Below the pieces are notes generated by a model. That model was not told the origin of the DNA and made no database searches. It saw only the letters and a program-made list of their open reading frames with translations. From Candidatus Brocadia sp. (GTDB taxonomy: Bacteria > Planctomycetota > Brocadiia > Brocadiales > Brocadiaceae), in the NCBI GenBank assembly GCA_011525665.1, contig WYAU01000088.1:1-64000 (forward strand): a stretch of DNA of 64,000 bases, in the 5' to 3' direction. Each line of letters begins with the position of its first letter. The stretch's first letter is position 1. Shown here piece by piece: positions 23,046-33,180 of the stretch. Both the position numbers and the translations under genes were made by a program.

Positions 23046-23181
23046 TTGTAAATTGATTATCGAATTCCGCCTGATAGCTGGTTCAAAAGATTTATTTAAC
23101 TCAATCCACATAAGTAACAGAACCAGTGAGAACAGCTATTACGCCTGTCAATACAAGAATATTTTGAAAGAGGAAAAGATT

Positions 23182-23388
23182 ATGTATAAAACGATAGAGG
23201 CATATTACGAAAATGGTAAAATTATTTATAAAGAAGCCATGCCGCCTCTTAAAAAGGCAAAGCTACTCATAACCATTGTAGAAGAGGAGCCACGCAAAAT
23301 TCCAAAACTTTCTCGTTTCAAAGGTATATTTAAAAAAAGGGTTGACGGATTAGAGTATCAAAAAAAAATAAGAAACGAATGGAATTAA
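23182..23388 (+). CDS. VapB-type antitoxin
   Basis: A 68-residue protein starting MYKTIEAYYENGKIIYKEAMPP and ending in a basic tail. This is the style of small antitoxins (DUF104/DUF2281-like) paired with PIN toxins. I use the ATG at 23182 with AAAGAGGAAAAG as ribosome binding site, although the frame is open from 23053. The PIN gene starts one base after its stop codon. It probably binds its own promoter and the toxin. Confidence 0.75.
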   Translation: MYKTIEAYYENGKIIYKEAMPPLKKAKLLITIVEEEPRKIPKLSRFKGIFKKRVDGLEYQKKIRNEWN

Positions 23389-23389
23389 A

Positions 23390-23758
23390 ATGTCAGGATA
23401 CTTGCTGGATACCAATTCTGTAATCTATTTTTTTAATGGTGAGGAACCTATTTCAAAACTGATTAATGAGGCTGAAAACAATATAAGCATTTCTTTTATC
23501 ACAAAGATCGAATTGCTTTGTTTCGAAACAGAAAATGATATTGCAAAGAAAATTGCTGAATTTATAAGTGAAATCGAGGTTGTCTATATTAGTGACGAAA
23601 TTATCGAAAAGACAATAGACTACCGTAAAACATTAAAACTAAAGATACCTGACGCTATTATTGCAGCAACTGCAAAAGTTAAAGAGTTAACTCTGGTAAC
23701 TGCCGACAAATCGCTTACTCAGAAGCTAAAGGAACTAGCAATTGTAAGTCCAATTTAA
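23390..23758 (+). CDS. vapC: VapC-type PIN toxin
   Basis: A 122-residue PIN-domain RNase: GYLLDTNSVIYFFNG carries the first Asp, FITKIELLCF the Glu, and KLKIPDAIIAATA the third acidic site, followed by TLVTADKSL. All four acidic positions of an active PIN site are present. It directly follows the VapB-like gene, one base apart, giving a standard antitoxin-toxin operon. Confidence 0.9.
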   Translation: MSGYLLDTNSVIYFFNGEEPISKLINEAENNISISFITKIELLCFETENDIAKKIAEFISEIEVVYISDEIIEKTIDYRKTLKLKIPDAIIAATAKVKELTLVTADKSLTQKLKELAIVSPI

Positions 23759-24241: not shown

Positions 24242-24571
24242 ATGGATAAAAGATTGCATAAAATTATAAGGGATGTAAAGTTTGCTTTTGAAACCGTGGG
24301 AATCCATATTAATAAAATAATTTTGTTTGGTTCCTACGCTAAAGGAACTGCAAATAAATATAGTGATATTGATATTGCCGTAATTTCCAATGACTTTAAA
24401 GATATGAATTTGTTAAGACGGTTTGAGTTTATCGGTTTAGCTTTAGCAAAAGCCAAAATTATGGATCCAGTTGAAGTCAGAGTCTATACGGAAGAGGAGT
24501 TTGAAACAAAAAGGGAAGGCACATTTGTATGTGATGAAATTAAGGCCAAAGGAATAGAAGTCATGCTGTAA
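24242..24571 (+). CDS. mntA: MNT-type minimal nucleotidyltransferase
   Basis: A 109-residue nucleotidyltransferase of the pol-beta superfamily with the signature GSYAKGTANKYSDIDIAVIS (GSx10DxD). In HEPN-MNT modules the MNT protein acts as antitoxin by adding nucleotides to the HEPN RNase; this is family knowledge. Here the upstream gene has a HEPN motif but a defective-looking start, so the antitoxin may now be unpaired. GGGAG before the ATG is the ribosome binding site. The gene name is offered by analogy only. Confidence 0.8.
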   Translation: MDKRLHKIIRDVKFAFETVGIHINKIILFGSYAKGTANKYSDIDIAVISNDFKDMNLLRRFEFIGLALAKAKIMDPVEVRVYTEEEFETKREGTFVCDEIKAKGIEVML

Positions 24572-25415: not shown

Positions 25416-27743
25416 ATGCCCAGAGATATTCCCGTTGGTAACGGTTCATTATTGGTCGCATTTGATGCGGACTATACTATTCGTGATCTCTATTACCCGC
25501 GTGTAGGAAAGGAAAATCACGCCCTGGGGAATCCCAGCAGATTTGGTGTATGGACCATTGAGGGGTATTCGTGGGTCAATGCGCGGGATTGGAAGCTCTC
25601 CCTGGGATATCAAAAAGAGACCCTCGTAACCAACGTACGGGCGTTTCATGAAAATCTGGGCATCCAGCTCGCCTGTAACGACGTGGTTGATTTCGAGAAG
25701 AATATCTTTATGCGCAAGGTAATCGTCCGGAACCAAAAAAATAAGGAAAGAGATGTTCGTCTTTTTTTTCATCAGGATCTGAGTGTAATGGAAAACGAGA
25801 TTGGCGACACGGTATTTTATGATGCAAAGCTAAATTGTCTCATCCATTACAAAGGCCCCCGATACTTTTTGGTGAACTGTTCTGCAGGAGACGTATGGGG
25901 CGTGAGAGAATATGCAACGGGGATTAAGAGGCATCGTGGCGCTGAGGGGACTTGGCGCGATGCCGAGGATGGAATCCTGGGGGGAAACCCCATAGCACAG
26001 GGATCTGTAGATTCAACAATCGGTATTTCATTGAAAATCCAGGCCCTCGGAGAATCTGTTGTATATTACTGGATCACTGCCGGCAGGAATTACGGTGAGG
26101 TTGACGACCTGAATGACATTGTTTTAAGCGAAGAGCCACAAAAGATCATTGACAGGACGGCAAGTTACTGGTTCCACTGGGTGAATAAGGAGGAATTTAA
26201 TTTTGGAAACCTGCCAGCAGATGTGATTGATCTTTTTAAGAGGAGTCTGTTGGTCCTTATGACGCAGATCGATGGCGGAGGCGCCATTATCGCTGCAAAT
26301 GACTCGGATATCCGGCAATATGCAAAGGATACTTATAGTTATATGTGGCCCCGGGACGGTGCGCTGGTGTCCTATGCACTGATGAAGGCGGGATATACCA
26401 CTACATGCCGGAATTTCTTTAACTTTTGTGCAAATGTAATCACACCCTACAATTTCTGTGCAAGCGTTATGGTGCAGGATGGATTTCTGCTGCACAAGTA
26501 TAATCCGGACGGTTCTTTTGGGAGTTCCTGGCATCCCTGGGTAAAGGGGGAGGAGATACACGTTCCTATCCAGGAAGACGAAACGGCACTCCTTCTCTGG
26601 GCAATATGGCAATACTATGACCTGTATAGAAAAATCGATGAGATACGCCCCCTCTATCATTCCTTTATCGAAAAGGCAGCGGACTTTCTTGTGAGTTACC
26701 GGGATGAACAGACGGGGCTACCTCTTCCTTCTTATGACCTGTGGGAAGAAAGGCGTGGCGTCCTGTCCTTTACGGTAGCCACCGTATATGGCGGGCTGAT
26801 GGCCGCTGCAAACCTTTCTGACATATTTTATCATACCGAAAAGGCTGCATTATACAGACAGACCGCGGCGCAGATAAAAAAGGCAATCGATCAGCAGCTT
26901 TACAGCGAGAAACACAAGAGGTTTTTGCGCATGATCTATCCGGGAAAAGACGGTGAATATGAGATCGACGCAACAATTGATGCCAGTTTGTACGGGATGT
27001 TTGCCTTTGGTGTATATGACGCAAATGATGTCAGGATACAAAACACGATGAAGGCAATCGAAGAGGCCCTATGGGTCAGGACAAAAATCGGCGGAATTGC
27101 GCGGTATGAATATGACCAGTACCAGCGTGTCGGAAACGATGACACGATTCCGGGGAATCCTTGGATAATCTGTACCATGTGGTTGGCACAATACTATGTA
27201 TCAACAGCAAAGTCCGTTGAAGATCTCGAACGTGTAGTGAACTATTTACGATGGACTGTGTCCCGTGCATTGCCTTCCGGAGTGCTGGCAGAACAGATAA
27301 ATCCATTTACCGGAGAACCTGTTTCTGTTTCTCCGCTGACGTGGAGCCATGCTACCGTGGTACAAACGGTAATGGATTATCTTGAAAAGTTACAGGAATT
27401 ACATACCTGCGAGCAATGCGGGCGGTCGATATTCCGTTATGACCGTGCAGGGAGAAAACAAGTAAAAAAACATTCTCCGACGTATTTAGGTGTAATTTCA
27501 GATAAAGAACACATCCACTACCTTGATCACGTAAATGTTACAAGAGACAGTGAGACCATCAACGTGAGCATTGACCAAAGAAAGTGCGTGGGTTGTGGAA
27601 TCTGTGTCGAGAAATCAAATGGGGTTATGGATGTGGTCGAGGACAAGGCGAAGATTATTGCCGAGAAGGTTTCCGGCTGGGGTATCGAACCCGGATTCGA
27701 AAAGTGCTGCCCGTTAGGCGCAATTACGGTGGAGAAGAAATAA
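25416..27743 (+). CDS. GH15 glucoamylase-like enzyme fused to a ferredoxin domain
   Basis: A 775-residue cytosolic protein without signal peptide. Residues 1-660 are a GH15-type glycoside hydrolase: an N-terminal beta-sandwich domain (RDLYYPRVGKENH), then an (alpha/alpha)6 barrel with YMWPRDGALV, the catalytic-acid region IQEDETALLLWA, SYDLWEERRG and NPWIICTMWLAQYY. After a CEQCGRSIFRYDR zinc-ribbon-like pair comes a ferredoxin domain (about 715-775): CVGCGICVEKSNG, then FEKCCPLGAI, enough cysteines for a single [4Fe-4S] cluster. GH15 enzymes release glucose from alpha-glucans or trehalose. I know of no common reason for an iron-sulfur domain, so its role (redox gating or protein docking) is open. 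Frame continuity across the junction is clean. Confidence 0.88.
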   Translation: MPRDIPVGNGSLLVAFDADYTIRDLYYPRVGKENHALGNPSRFGVWTIEGYSWVNARDWKLSLGYQKETLVTNVRAFHENLGIQLACNDVVDFEKNIFMRKVIVRNQKNKERDVRLFFHQDLSVMENEIGDTVFYDAKLNCLIHYKGPRYFLVNCSAGDVWGVREYATGIKRHRGAEGTWRDAEDGILGGNPIAQGSVDSTIGISLKIQALGESVVYYWITAGRNYGEVDDLNDIVLSEEPQKIIDRTASYWFHWVNKEEFNFGNLPADVIDLFKRSLLVLMTQIDGGGAIIAANDSDIRQYAKDTYSYMWPRDGALVSYALMKAGYTTTCRNFFNFCANVITPYNFCASVMVQDGFLLHKYNPDGSFGSSWHPWVKGEEIHVPIQEDETALLLWAIWQYYDLYRKIDEIRPLYHSFIEKAADFLVSYRDEQTGLPLPSYDLWEERRGVLSFTVATVYGGLMAAANLSDIFYHTEKAALYRQTAAQIKKAIDQQLYSEKHKRFLRMIYPGKDGEYEIDATIDASLYGMFAFGVYDANDVRIQNTMKAIEEALWVRTKIGGIARYEYDQYQRVGNDDTIPGNPWIICTMWLAQYYVSTAKSVEDLERVVNYLRWTVSRALPSGVLAEQINPFTGEPVSVSPLTWSHATVVQTVMDYLEKLQELHTCEQCGRSIFRYDRAGRKQVKKHSPTYLGVISDKEHIHYLDHVNVTRDSETINVSIDQRKCVGCGICVEKSNGVMDVVEDKAKIIAEKVSGWGIEPGFEKCCPLGAITVEKK

Positions 27744-27751
27744 ATGGTCAA

Positions 27752-28071
27752 AATTCTACACGTGAACCGGGAGAGTGGCTTATTGCGATGATTGAAAAGG
27801 CGGCTGGGCTTCCGGCGCCACATGCCTTTGACAAACCCCGGGAATTCAAGAGTTCTGCAGGACAGGTCGTTTCATCGGCCAGAGGAGGACTGCATGATGC
27901 CGTGGAGCAGTTAAAACGCCTGGGAAAACCTTTTCTTAACTGGACGGGCAAGGCAGAGCGGTTGTCTTTTGAGTTGAGGCAGGCGAACATGGGCAAATTG
28001 CGGTAAAGGTGATCGATGATCGTGGAAATGAAGTGATGGTGGTGAAGAATCTGAAGGAGATAATGGAATGA
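27752..28071 (+). pseudogene. remnant of a DNA methyltransferase-like C-terminus
   Basis: One frame encodes EWLIAMIEKAAGLPAPHAFD to FLNWTGKAERLSFE, then a frameshift leads to HGQIAVKVIDDRGNEVMVVK and the stop at 28069-28071. The ending resembles C-termini of DNA methylases from type III-like systems, and it overlaps the next start codon (ATGA), as genes in an operon do. The 5' part is missing. Assignment is tentative and rests partly on the restriction-enzyme remnant downstream. Confidence 0.45.
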
Positions 28072-29573
28072 GTTATCGGCAAAAAACTCTTTTTGTATAT
28101 CTCAAAGAAGCATTGGAAGCTACTTTATATGATAGTAACCCCTGGTGGCGTGGCGAAAAACTATTCGGACTACCCAAAATGCGGCGCTGGGCATTTCAAC
28201 CTGCACTTCAGGGTATTCAAAAGGGCTTAGCGCCTGCAGTAGTTCTGCGTGGCCCAAGGCAAATTGGCAAGACAACACTTTTGGCCCAAATCATAGATTA
28301 TTTACTCAATAATAATATATCACCACACCGAATCTTTCGTATTCAATTCGATGACCTGCCGGAATTGAGAAGATTGAAAGATGTCAGCGTGATTCTTGAA
28401 TTGTGCAGGTGGTTTTCTGAAAAAATATTAAAGAAAACATTTAACAAGGCTGCACTTGATGGCGAGCAGGCGTATATTTTTCTTGATGAAGTCCAGAACC
28501 TGCCTGACTGGGCGCCACAACTAAAACACCTTGTAGATATGCATCCCGTGAGGGTTTTGGTTACAGGAAGTTCCGCCTTAAGGATTGAGGCAGGAAGGGA
28601 CAGTTTAGCCGGACGTATTACAACGCTGGAGATGGGACCCTTGCTGTTGCGTGAAATAGGTGAGATACGTGAATTTGGCAAGTGTGATCCCTATCTGCCT
28701 CCTAACGGAATAGCTCCTCTCAAACAAAAAGAATTCTGGCACGGGTTACGCAATTACGGAGAGAAACAATCCGAATTTCGCCAAAAAGCTTTTCTGGCTT
28801 TTTCCGAAAGAGGCGGGTATCCTGTTGCTCAGGCACATGCGGATATTCCCTGGGAACGAGTCGCGGACCAGTTGAATGAAACGGTAATTAAACGTGCTAT
28901 CCAGCATGATCTTCGTATGGGACCAAAAGGCAAAAAGCGCGACGAGCATTTACTCGAAGAAGTATTCCGGCTTGCATGCCGCTATATTGGACAATCGCCC
29001 GCACAAGCTTTTTATCTTGAAGAAATCCGCCGTGCTATGCACGCCAATATTGGATGGCAACGTATTCTCGCATATCTCAGATTTTTAGACGGAACATTAC
29101 TGCTTCGCCTCATCGAACCTTTGGAATTAAGGCTCAAACGACGCCGTGGGGCATCAAAGTTATGTCTGTGCGACCACGCACTGCGCGCTGCATGGCTTCA
29201 GGAAATTGTACCGCTTACACAAGAAGAACTGGAGAAGCAGGCACATCTTTCGGATTTGGCGGGGAGAATTGCAGAAAGCACCGTTGGTTATTTTCTGAGT
29301 ACGATCATTGGATTGGATATTGCCCATTTTCCTGAGCGTAGCGCAGAACCAGAAGTGGATTTTATACTTACCGTTGGAGAACAGAGGATTCCGGCAGAAA
29401 TTAAATACCGGCAATACATTGACTATAGAGATACCATCGGCTTAAGGTCTTTTATAGAAAAAGTACATTACAAAGCCCCCTTTGGTTTACTGATTACATT
29501 AACGGACACCCCTGCTACGGATGATCCCCGGATTATTTCCCTTCCTCTTTCAACCCTGCTTTTGCTGAGATAA
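28068..29573 (+). CDS. AAA (AAA_14) / DUF4143 ATPase
   Basis: A 501-residue P-loop ATPase: Walker A GPRQIGKTTL near residue 63, IFLDEVQNLPDW as Walker B, and VLVTGSSALRI as sensor. The C-terminal DUF4143 part ends with EVDFILTVGEQRIPAEIKYR (about residues 455-475), which has the look of a PD-(D/E)XK-like nuclease fold. The start overlaps the end of a methylase remnant by ATGA, and an endonuclease remnant follows after 10 bases. It was therefore the middle gene of a restriction-type operon and is the only one still intact. It may have been retained for another function or be next to decay. Confidence 0.85.
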   Translation: MSYRQKTLFVYLKEALEATLYDSNPWWRGEKLFGLPKMRRWAFQPALQGIQKGLAPAVVLRGPRQIGKTTLLAQIIDYLLNNNISPHRIFRIQFDDLPELRRLKDVSVILELCRWFSEKILKKTFNKAALDGEQAYIFLDEVQNLPDWAPQLKHLVDMHPVRVLVTGSSALRIEAGRDSLAGRITTLEMGPLLLREIGEIREFGKCDPYLPPNGIAPLKQKEFWHGLRNYGEKQSEFRQKAFLAFSERGGYPVAQAHADIPWERVADQLNETVIKRAIQHDLRMGPKGKKRDEHLLEEVFRLACRYIGQSPAQAFYLEEIRRAMHANIGWQRILAYLRFLDGTLLLRLIEPLELRLKRRRGASKLCLCDHALRAAWLQEIVPLTQEELEKQAHLSDLAGRIAESTVGYFLSTIIGLDIAHFPERSAEPEVDFILTVGEQRIPAEIKYRQYIDYRDTIGLRSFIEKVHYKAPFGLLITLTDTPATDDPRIISLPLSTLLLLR

Positions 29574-29583
29574 GGGATGACAT

Positions 29584-30214
29584 ATGAACAATTACAAAGT
29601 TGAAGAACCAATATTAAATTCACCTTCCGAAGAGCCTGCCGAGCACGGGCATATTGAGGAGGGACAACCACCGGAAAGGAGATCGGGACGTCGTCAGGCA
29701 GGGTATTTTTGCCGTGACCCAAAGGCCCCAATATCTTCCGGGGAACACGAGACGCGGCGGCAGGAAAGAAACTCCTAAGCCTGAGGCGATTCTCAAATGG
29801 GCGAATACGCCTAATAATCAAGGACGTTGTCCGCTTACAGGTCCGGGAAGAATTGAGAACGTGGACTTAAATCCGTATCGTTCGGCGCGGCGTTTCCAGG
29901 AACTGGTTTTTGAACTGGCTCGTGATCTGACAAGGGATTATACAAAACAGTCCAGATGCATAATACCTGCACATGTCCTTTTTCCACAAATAGCAAAAAT
30001 TGTGGATAAATATCTCAAGGAAAAAGTCCTGCCCATTCCACCAGCAAACATCCTCGGCGTGTGCCTTTCTCCCTATTATGGCTGGGTCATTGAGCGATTG
30101 ATGGAGGAGATCCAGCCGGATACATCGCTGGGAGAAGCGCCAGAGACACCACGTTATGAAACAACCCGTGGTCCAGGTTCTGCGGCCGAAGTGGATTTCA
30201 CCCCTTCGACTTAG
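29584..30214 (+). pseudogene. remnant of BPTD_3080-type restriction endonuclease
   Basis: Frame one (29584-29778) starts VEEPILNSPSEEPAEHGHIEEG, the characteristic N-terminus of BPTD_3080-type DEAD-helicase restriction enzymes. The frame then shifts, and a second frame (to 30214) shows internal parts: NPYRSARRFQELVFELAR, LSPYYGWVIERLMEEI and YETTRGPGSAAEVDF. Together these cover well under a quarter of a full enzyme, which normally exceeds 900 residues, and the helicase core is entirely missing. So the gene has suffered a large internal deletion and loss of the 3' end. Confidence 0.7.
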
Positions 30215-30299: not shown

Positions 30300-32717
30300 A
30301 TGAAGATCAGACATAAACTCGTAATACTATTGGCCGTGCTGCTGGTTACTTTAAACGGCGTGATTGCCTTTTCAATTTATAAACGGACACGCCAGGAATT
30401 TGTCAAAGAAGTTCGGGAAAAGGCCAAGTTGATTGCCTCGGAATTAGAAACCACCCGAAATTATCTTGCCTCTGCCCTGCAAACATCCAAAATAGAAATC
30501 AACGAACAGACAAAACTTTTTATTCCTGCCGTTTCCGGCCATGTCATCGGGATGAAATATGCCGAAAAGACAGGCTACATTATAAAGCAAACCAGCATGA
30601 GGTATCGGAATTTATTCAATAAGCCCGATCCCTTTGAGGAAAGGGTACTCAGGGAAATGGAAGGAAATCCGAATCTTCATGAGTACTGGGACGATGATAT
30701 CATAGATGGGAAGAGGGTTGAACGATACCTGTACGCCTTGCACGTAAAAGAGGATTGCCTCCTTTGCCACGGACCAAAGGAAAAAGCCCCTGAATTCATA
30801 CAAAAAAATTATGACGCAGGTTATGATTATAAGGTGGGAGAGCTGCGGGGGGCAATTAGTGTCATTATTCCAAAAGAGATAGCCGAACAGCGGTTTGCAG
30901 CCAACTTTATTTTTTTTGTTACCGTTGGTTCTATCAGTATTTTGCTCGTCGTGACAATTGTTTTCGTGATTACAGGAAAATTTATGAAGCCGATCGAGCG
31001 GTTAACTGCTGCTGTGGCTACCATTACAAAGACGGGTGATCTTACAACGACAGTGGATGTATCATCCAAGGACGAGGTTGGGCAACTGGGCAGGGCGTTT
31101 AATGATATGTCTGCCAAACTGCAATCTATATATGTCACGCTGGAGCAACGGATTGCCGAAAAAACTGCCCATTTGCAAGAGGCCGTTTTGGCCCTGGAAC
31201 GGGCAAACAAAATGAAATCGGAGTTTCTTGCCAATATGTCCCATGAACTACGAACGCCCCTTAACGCTATAATCGGCTTTGCAGAGGTACTCAGGGATAA
31301 GATTGCCGGAGACCTGAACGAAGAACAGACCGATTTTGTCACTGATATTCACAGCAGTGGTTGTCATCTCCTCCAGATGATCAATGATATCCTGGATCTG
31401 TCTAAAATTGAGGCGGGCAAGATGGAGCTCCAGTACGAAGTTTTTCCGGTGCACGATGCCATTGAAGAGGTGTACACCATTTTAAAAGGGCTTGCGAATA
31501 AAAAACATCTGGAATTAAAGACAGAAATCCTGACGGATGTAAAAAATATTGAAGCGGACAGGGTCAAATTCAAACAGATATTGTATAACCTGCTTTCGAA
31601 TGCCATAAAATTTACCCCGGAAAACGGGAAAATCGCCGTAGAGGCCGGCGTAGTGGATGATATGCTGCAGGTATCGGTTTCTGATACGGGCATTGGAATG
31701 AAATCCCAGGACCGGGAAAAGGTGTTTAAAGAATTCTGGCAGGCGGATAGTTCTTTTGCGCGGAAATATGAGGGTACGGGGCTGGGACTTGCCCTGACAA
31801 AAAGAATCGTTGAGATGCATGGTGGGAAAATCTGGTTTGAAAGTGAATACGGAAAGGGAAGTATATTTTATTTCGCCTTGCCCTTAAAGGCCTCCTTCAA
31901 GCCACCCAAACCGAAAGAGACCGAAGCCAGACCCCGTTTTGTGGCATCCGCCACAGCAGAAAGGGAGACAAAAAGTGTTTTGGTTGTTGAAGATGACCGG
32001 ATGGCAGCAGACCTTCTCACCCTGTATTTGACAAATGCAGGGTATAATGTTATCGTAGCCGTGGATGGAGAAGAGGCCATTAAAAAGGCGAAGGAATTCC
32101 ACCCGTTTTTGATCACCCTGGATATTATGTTACCGAAAATAGATGGATGGGACGTCCTCTCGGAACTGAAAAATTCACCGGATGTCGCCGATATACCGGT
32201 AATTATCGTGTCGATTGTCGATAATAAAGAACTTGGTTTCAGCCTGGGCGCAGTAGAGTATTTGATTAAACCCATCGAGAGGGAAAAGCTCATTACTACG
32301 GTAAACGCCTGCGTGCCAGCGGAAAAGCTTACGGGGAAACCTATGAAAGTTCTTGTCGTGGATGACGATGAAAAAGCCGTAAAATATATGAGCGCTGTTC
32401 TCGAAAGCGCAGGATTTGAGGTACTGAAGGCATATAGCGGCAAAGCAGGAATCAATCTTGCCATTCATAATGCCCCCGACCTCATGATACTCGATCTCAT
32501 GATGCCGGAAATCAGCGGTTTTGACGTCATTGAAAGGCTCAGGGTGCATCCAACGGCAAAGGGAATCCCCATTATTATATGCTCCGCAAAGGATATTACG
32601 GCGGAGGAAAAAAAAGTCCTGAACGGCAATATTCTGGCCATTGTCCAAAAAAGCAGCCACACAAAGGAAGACCTTCTTGCTGCAATCAGGAAGATAGAAC
32701 AACTGCATGTGAAATAA
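30300..32717 (+). CDS. haem-binding hybrid sensor histidine kinase
   Basis: An 805-residue membrane kinase. Transmembrane helix 1 (about 7-25) is followed by an exported Tll0287/DUF3365-like sensor domain with the c-type haem motif CLLCH (153-157). Then come transmembrane helix 2 (about 203-225), HAMP, a coiled linker, and the HisKA domain with MSHELRTPLNAI (phospho-acceptor His315). The ATPase domain has the TGIGMK and GTGLGLALTKR motifs, and two receiver domains follow (from about 557 and 681) containing VVEDDR and VVDDDE. The haem suggests sensing of redox state, NO or another gas; that is inference. Two response-regulator genes follow, giving a complete phosphorelay. Confidence 0.93.
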   Translation: MKIRHKLVILLAVLLVTLNGVIAFSIYKRTRQEFVKEVREKAKLIASELETTRNYLASALQTSKIEINEQTKLFIPAVSGHVIGMKYAEKTGYIIKQTSMRYRNLFNKPDPFEERVLREMEGNPNLHEYWDDDIIDGKRVERYLYALHVKEDCLLCHGPKEKAPEFIQKNYDAGYDYKVGELRGAISVIIPKEIAEQRFAANFIFFVTVGSISILLVVTIVFVITGKFMKPIERLTAAVATITKTGDLTTTVDVSSKDEVGQLGRAFNDMSAKLQSIYVTLEQRIAEKTAHLQEAVLALERANKMKSEFLANMSHELRTPLNAIIGFAEVLRDKIAGDLNEEQTDFVTDIHSSGCHLLQMINDILDLSKIEAGKMELQYEVFPVHDAIEEVYTILKGLANKKHLELKTEILTDVKNIEADRVKFKQILYNLLSNAIKFTPENGKIAVEAGVVDDMLQVSVSDTGIGMKSQDREKVFKEFWQADSSFARKYEGTGLGLALTKRIVEMHGGKIWFESEYGKGSIFYFALPLKASFKPPKPKETEARPRFVASATAERETKSVLVVEDDRMAADLLTLYLTNAGYNVIVAVDGEEAIKKAKEFHPFLITLDIMLPKIDGWDVLSELKNSPDVADIPVIIVSIVDNKELGFSLGAVEYLIKPIEREKLITTVNACVPAEKLTGKPMKVLVVDDDEKAVKYMSAVLESAGFEVLKAYSGKAGINLAIHNAPDLMILDLMMPEISGFDVIERLRVHPTAKGIPIIICSAKDITAEEKKVLNGNILAIVQKSSHTKEDLLAAIRKIEQLHVK

Positions 32718-32808: not shown

Positions 32809-33180
32809 ATGTCTGGCAAAAATGTAATGGTTGTTGAAGATAATGAAAAAAACCGAAAACTCATGCGCGTAGTGCTCAAGGCAAAAGGGTACAATGTGAT
32901 TGAAGCAACCACCGGGGAGGAGGCATTAAACATCTTAAAGAACCAGAAACCCGATATCATCCTTATGGACATCCAGCTTCCGGGAATAGACGGTCTCACA
33001 TTAGTAAAACAGATCAGGGCAGATACAATTACAAAGGACATCCCCATCATTGCCGTAACCGCATACGCTATGAAGGGAGACGAACAAAAGATATTAGAGA
33101 CGGGTTGTAACGCCTACGTCAGCAAACCCATCAATACACAAGAACTACCGCTCGTCATAGAAAAATACATAAAAAAATGA
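32809..33180 (+). CDS. single-domain response regulator (DivK/CheY type)
   Basis: A 123-residue receiver domain only: VMVVEDNEKN (acidic pocket), IILMDIQLPGIDG with the phosphorylated Asp, VTAYAM, and KPINTQEL with the conserved Lys. There is no output domain, so it relays phosphate. It sits 91 bases after the hybrid kinase, and its stop overlaps the start of the next regulator gene by ATGA. Confidence 0.93.
   Translation: MSGKNVMVVEDNEKNRKLMRVVLKAKGYNVIEATTGEEALNILKNQKPDIILMDIQLPGIDGLTLVKQIRADTITKDIPIIAVTAYAMKGDEQKILETGCNAYVSKPINTQELPLVIEKYIKK

Follow-up and report, generated by a model that had tools for sequence, protein, structure and literature searches.

The window is a stretch of 64,000 nucleotides from a contig of the anammox bacterium Candidatus Brocadia, and its forward strand carries a gene in which a glucoamylase-like enzyme is followed by a ferredoxin domain (Fd). 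The open reading frame opens with ATG at 25416 and stays in a single frame to 27743 with zero internal stops. The encoded protein of 775 residues is built, from N- to C-terminus, of a beta-sandwich, an (alpha/alpha)6 barrel of glycoside hydrolase family 15 (GH15), a CxxC tail and a single-cluster ferredoxin domain:

25416-27743, + strand: GH15-ferredoxin fusion gene, 775 aa, a stop-free reading frame with orthologs in 28 relatives
25416-26207, + strand: N-terminal beta-sandwich domain, residues 1-264 (AlphaFold2 model, Foldseek match 1LF6)
26208-27380, + strand: GH15 (alpha/alpha)6 catalytic barrel, residues 265-655 (Pfam PF00723 and fold match)
26745-26747, + strand: E444, predicted general acid
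27291-27293, + strand: E626, predicted general base
27408-27419, + strand: CxxC tail, C665 and C668
27537-27740, + strand: single-cluster ferredoxin domain, residues 708-775 (pLDDT about 89, Fer4 motif)

The hydrolase and its ferredoxin domain

The assignment of the enzyme part to the GH15 hydrolases is well supported. Residues 276-651 match Pfam PF00723 (GH15) with an E value of 1.1e-31 and a score of 110.7 bits, where the cut-off is 22. AlphaFold2 gave a pLDDT of 49.6 when supplied with 22 close orthologs only; the model used here was built on a 117-sequence alignment (mean pLDDT 91, pTM 0.92), and its top Foldseek match is the bacterial glucoamylase 1LF6 (E 6.5e-29, 716 columns). The catalytic acid and base of 1LF6, E438 and E636, find their counterparts in E444 and E626; across the 117 homologs E626 is invariant and E444 nearly so. 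A score above the Pfam cut-off, the pair of catalytic glutamates and a beta-sandwich joined to an (alpha/alpha)6 barrel are marks of GH15 membership, and all three are present. In fold and catalytic pair the protein resembles the GH15 glucoamylases (1LF6; Sulfolobus Gaa), whereas a ferredoxin domain and a CxxC tail are not reported for those enzymes. The NCBIfam model for the oligosaccharide amylases, TIGR01577, aligns over nearly the full length of the enzyme (residues 12-656), yet it scores 337 bits where the curated threshold is 820.7, a wide shortfall, and by this measure the protein is not a member of that family. Glycogen, maltodextrin, trehalose and isomaltose are the candidate substrates, among which the sequence does not choose. 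The N-terminus, MPRDIPVGNG, runs straight into the beta-sandwich with no hydrophobic leader visible by eye, in line with the initial annotation of this DNA, which had remarked on the missing signal peptide; the fusion enzyme is apparently cytosolic.

The ferredoxin domain has the pattern C724-x2-C727-x2-C730 ... C764-C765-P, with C724, C727, C730 and C765 as the ligand set, and is predicted to be loaded with a [4Fe-4S] cluster. Taken as a single sequence, it scores 16.8 bits against a Pfam Fer4 cut-off of 21.1, with weak matches at residues 717-732. Relatives lie above curated cut-offs: L176 reaches 28.2 against 21.1 for Fer4, and L052 reaches 31.3 against 27 for Fer4_7. With the C-terminal tail as query, phmmer recovers the ferredoxins of Thermotoga (E 5e-4) and Pyrococcus (E 7e-4), and the family profile matches polyferredoxins at E 5e-8. 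The Pfam match of the barrel and the four ligand cysteines bear out the initial reading of this gene as a glucoamylase-like GH15 enzyme joined to a [4Fe-4S]-type ferredoxin domain.

That reading also placed a CxxC ribbon between the two parts. The order stands, and the pair is present in 26 of 26 fused anammox proteins; as a piece of the redox module, however, the ribbon has to be rejected, being found in 36 of 80 non-fused homologs and in the paralog of the window's own genome. Since so many homologs without the fusion already have it, the CxxC tail predates the Fd.

Distribution and descent of the fusion

Of 59 genomes searched, 28, the window's included, have the full-length, stop-free fusion, with relatives 75-93% identical; a contig-cut copy that retains the Fd in one further genome brings the number in the window's order to 29. 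Ca. Jettenia ecosi has the fusion (L039). A scan with the C-terminal part returned a version with a two-cluster Fd, carried, among the matches listed, by Phycisphaerales, Humisphaera, Planctomycetaceae and another Planctomycetota record. When 248 genomes were sampled around one Phycisphaerae-side record, 22 had the fusion, again with the two-cluster Fd. Around Nitrospirae, Acidobacteria and deltaproteobacterial records, 890 genomes were covered, and none of the 102 with a GH15 homolog carries an Fd on it.

A lost stop codon or a chimeric assembly could in principle have merged separate glucoamylase and ferredoxin genes, and the initial annotation had raised doubts about the frame at 27380-27600. 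The domain-pair search that it proposed removes them: the same in-frame, stop-free pair occurs in the 29 genomes of the order and the 22 around Phycisphaerae, several of the copies lying on single or very long contigs (in G467, a single contig of 7.19 Mb). No stop is missing between the domains, the relatives share the fusion, and nothing in favour of an artefact was found in these genomes. Frameshift, missing stop and chimeric assembly are ruled out by these 51 genomes, and the artefact explanation is refuted. The suggested tie of the fusion to an anaerobic way of life fared less well: with Phycisphaerales, Humisphaera and Planctomycetaceae records among its bearers, an anaerobe-specific fusion is not supported.

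No published description of a GH15 enzyme with a ferredoxin domain was found in the literature searched, which agrees with the earlier remark that the fusion lacks precedent. It is a confirmed and conserved, and apparently undescribed, domain architecture on a known enzyme family. Glycoside hydrolases are not known to have Fe-S domains, and none that does was met in the literature searched.

The ferredoxin domain comes in three forms, all of which retain cluster I. The 8-Cys form is found in L042, L153-L157 and L177. In the 7-Cys form, found in Phycisphaerae and L046, the sixth cysteine is replaced by Asp (12 cases) or Asn (3). The 4-Cys form is that of the anammox bacteria, in which cluster II is gone. 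Within the anammox clade the Fd has been lost in frame in L027/L133 and in L041, with the enzyme and the overlap with a downstream kinase gene kept; L054, apparently without an Fd, switches reading frame immediately ahead of the domain and was left out of these losses. The GH15 tree does not resolve the anammox clade, and the AU test does not reject (p 0.61) a single clade made up of the fused sequences and the lineages that fall among them. A single origin of the fusion is tentatively favoured by a linker motif, CxxCGRS-[IV]FR-DR-GR-Q[IV]-HS, that the 4-Cys and 8-Cys forms have in common. In two places (L011:4675-4764; G031:C630:13403-13492) part of the 3' end of the Fd coding region recurs downstream of the full gene, as if duplicated by an insertion.

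The anammox family also has a GH15 paralog without an Fd, about 54% identical to the fusion protein. The copy in the window's genome (G000:C108, L122) is 55% identical over residues 1-683. It shares the GH15 enzyme and the CxxC tail with the fusion and differs from it in lacking the Fd and in its neighbours, which are genes for aldehyde dehydrogenase, 6-phosphogluconolactonase and glucose-6-phosphate dehydrogenase. A ferritin-like gene also adjoins this paralog.

Conservation within the anammox orthologs separates the two parts of the protein. The four ligands, the extra C764 and both cysteines of the CxxC tail stay unchanged in all 26 aligned sequences, and mean identity is 67% in the Fd against 88% in the barrel. 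Pairwise dN/dS is lowest in the barrel (0.047), followed by the beta-sandwich (0.061) and the CxxC tail (0.069); the Fd stands at 0.185 and the linker at 0.371. These ratios are rough because dS is near 1. The Fd is under purifying selection, looser than that on the enzyme part. Invariant ligands and purifying selection together mean that the domain is used. A vestigial or neutral Fd, kept by drift, is very unlikely: it would suit a dN/dS four times that of the barrel, the losses in L027 and L041 and the missing cluster II of the anammox bacteria, but it sits badly with ligand cysteines that never vary, with a ratio this low even at such a dS, and with the retention of the fusion in two distant planctomycete groups.

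Gene neighbourhoods

The genes downstream of the fusion in the window are:

28068-30214, + strand: DUF4143 AAA ATPase gene and a 186-aa reading frame, inserted between the fusion gene and its usual downstream partner
30300-32717, + strand: Tll0287-like (heme c motif CLLCH)-HAMP-histidine kinase-REC-REC gene, the usual operon partner (Pfam)
32809-33180, + strand: stand-alone response regulator of 123 aa, in the same cluster as the response regulators of L124, L126-L128, L131 and L132
33177-33911, + strand: REC-PAS response regulator of the same cluster (Pfam, gene order)

Many anammox genomes share a common arrangement, in which RtcB (with or without pcm) is followed by the fusion gene, the Tll0287-HAMP-histidine kinase-REC-REC gene and two response regulators. 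Among 11 loci of relatives, 8 have the stop of the fusion gene overlapping the start of the kinase gene, with 4, 11 or 17 bp shared. The window has no such overlap; the ATPase gene and the 186-aa reading frame intervene, and the kinase starts at 30300. The overlap is independent of the Fd, since genes that lack the domain keep it, as in L133. Beside the Phycisphaerae fusion genes no Tll0287 kinase was found, and a PAS-type kinase stands beside one of them. Between RtcB and pcm, an antitoxin/PIN-toxin pair and an MNT-type nucleotidyltransferase are likely, as judged by eye (window 23053-23758 and 24242-24571).

In the 8-Cys branch the neighbours are those of glycogen breakdown. A glycogen debranching enzyme (GDE_N/GDE_C) is encoded directly downstream of the fusion in L042/L180, L173, L174, L175 and L176, and L176 has a GH57 gene nearby upstream. 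Another GH57 gene (L177:5163-6416) lies directly upstream of a degenerate copy of the fusion; in this copy (L177:6416-8629) both the catalytic acid and the WPRD motif are gone and the 8-Cys Fd is intact, which makes it a GH15-like pseudoenzyme candidate. The genome from which the window comes also encodes GDE_C, GH57 and glycogen synthase, at other sites. For Ca. Jettenia ecosi, genes of glycogen synthesis and hydrolysis have been annotated, and carbohydrate-active enzymes with signal peptides for hydrolysis of extracellular polysaccharides are reportedly absent (PMC6828613). In Sulfolobus, mutant work gives the GH15 enzyme Gaa a part in the breakdown of stored glycogen (PMC8158581). Family, catalytic residues, missing leader, gene partners and the Sulfolobus precedent are the grounds for reading a storage glucan as the probable substrate, and make the initial annotation's proposal of storage-glucan breakdown plausible.

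Possible roles of the ferredoxin domain

The tentatively preferred explanation, first among those weighed, is a cytosolic exo-glucosidase on storage glucan whose Fd is a regulatory and docking module responsive to redox state or oxygen. The enzyme would be an inverting GH15 exo-alpha-glucosidase that frees glucose from intracellular alpha-glucan, either glycogen itself or the maltodextrins left after debranching. The C-terminal [4Fe-4S] domain would regulate and dock: the state of its cluster, loaded and reduced or else oxidised and lost, would set the activity, the stability or the partner binding of the enzyme, and the cell would draw on its sugar reserve as redox or oxygen conditions dictate. 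Anammox bacteria would produce the enzyme along with the histidine kinase that senses redox state through heme c, and with the response regulators of that kinase, an arrangement that would fit a module tuning the use of reserves to redox state. Enzyme activity, substrate, cluster loading and the effect of the cluster on the enzyme are what we infer from the sequence, and the proposed coupling of glucan breakdown to redox state draws some genetic support from the kinase-gene overlap.

The kinase partner speaks for a redox-responsive role of the Fd; yet the overlap outlives the loss of the domain. Three further points count against such a role. Hydrolysis of a glucan uses no electrons, so that the Fd could be structural; the domain is dispensable in some lineages, L027/L133 and L041 having lost it and kept the enzyme; and the Phycisphaerae genes were not found to have the Tll0287 kinase as a neighbour. 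The more specific proposal of direct Fe-S control, in which the fused Fd itself would sense redox state or oxygen and gate storage-glucan hydrolysis, forming in anammox bacteria a two-gene module with the heme-c histidine kinase, is possible, and somewhat less probable than the broader regulatory reading.

Ranked second, and somewhat unlikely on present evidence, is a purely structural or docking role, in which the Fe-S domain would be a platform for a partner debranching enzyme, a GH57 amylase or the glycogen particle and would have no redox function. The working analogy is ABCE1/Rli1, whose reaction is not a redox one and which nonetheless has a ferredoxin-like domain with two [4Fe-4S] clusters (PMC4523923); it differs from the fusion in being an unrelated enzyme, with its two-cluster domain at the N-terminus and a function in ribosome recycling. 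The reduction of cluster II, from 8 Cys through 7 Cys plus Asp or Asn to 4 Cys, with cluster I strictly kept, looks scaffold-like. The near-neutral charge of the fused domain, and the intact 8-Cys Fd that L177 holds on a barrel without its catalytic acid, next to GH57, point the same way. A scaffold does not account for the anammox operon with a heme-c redox-sensor kinase, nor for the presence of a cluster sensitive to oxygen when a domain without one would serve.

Net charge bears on whether the Fd could act as a carrier. It is near 0 in the fused domains (median 0 in anammox, -3 in the 7-Cys form and +2 in the 8-Cys form), and a count of charges shows clearly acidic carrier ferredoxins in T. 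maritima and P. furiosus. The fused domain shares with these ferredoxins the CxxCxxC ... CP layout and the single cluster; unlike them, it stands behind a hydrolase, is near-neutral and has an extra invariant cysteine before that of the CP pair. Such a charge favours a putative built-in role over that of a freely docking carrier. As an electron conduit, the Fd would accept electrons from a partner oxidoreductase that oxidises the freed glucose, or would supply electrons to a partner. The ferredoxin motif and all four ligands are kept, as this would require, and ferredoxin-dependent sugar oxidoreductases exist, the glucose:ferredoxin oxidoreductase of Pyrococcus being one. No oxidoreductase gene recurs beside the fusion in the loci examined, however, and the paralog that does lie near glucose-6-phosphate dehydrogenase, 6-phosphogluconolactonase and aldehyde dehydrogenase is the one without an Fd. 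Together with the near-neutral charge and the loss of cluster II, the lack of such a neighbour speaks against a classical electron carrier, and the conduit, third in order, is unlikely.

If the regulatory reading holds, the presence of the fusion across Planctomycetota and beside glycogen-breakdown genes would connect redox or oxygen state with the consumption of stored sugar in a way open to direct test. Glycogen genes are present in anammox bacteria, which meet oxygen stress in wastewater plants, where the fusion could bear on the spending of reserves. The 8-, 7- and 4-Cys forms and the revertants without an Fd make up a natural comparison set.
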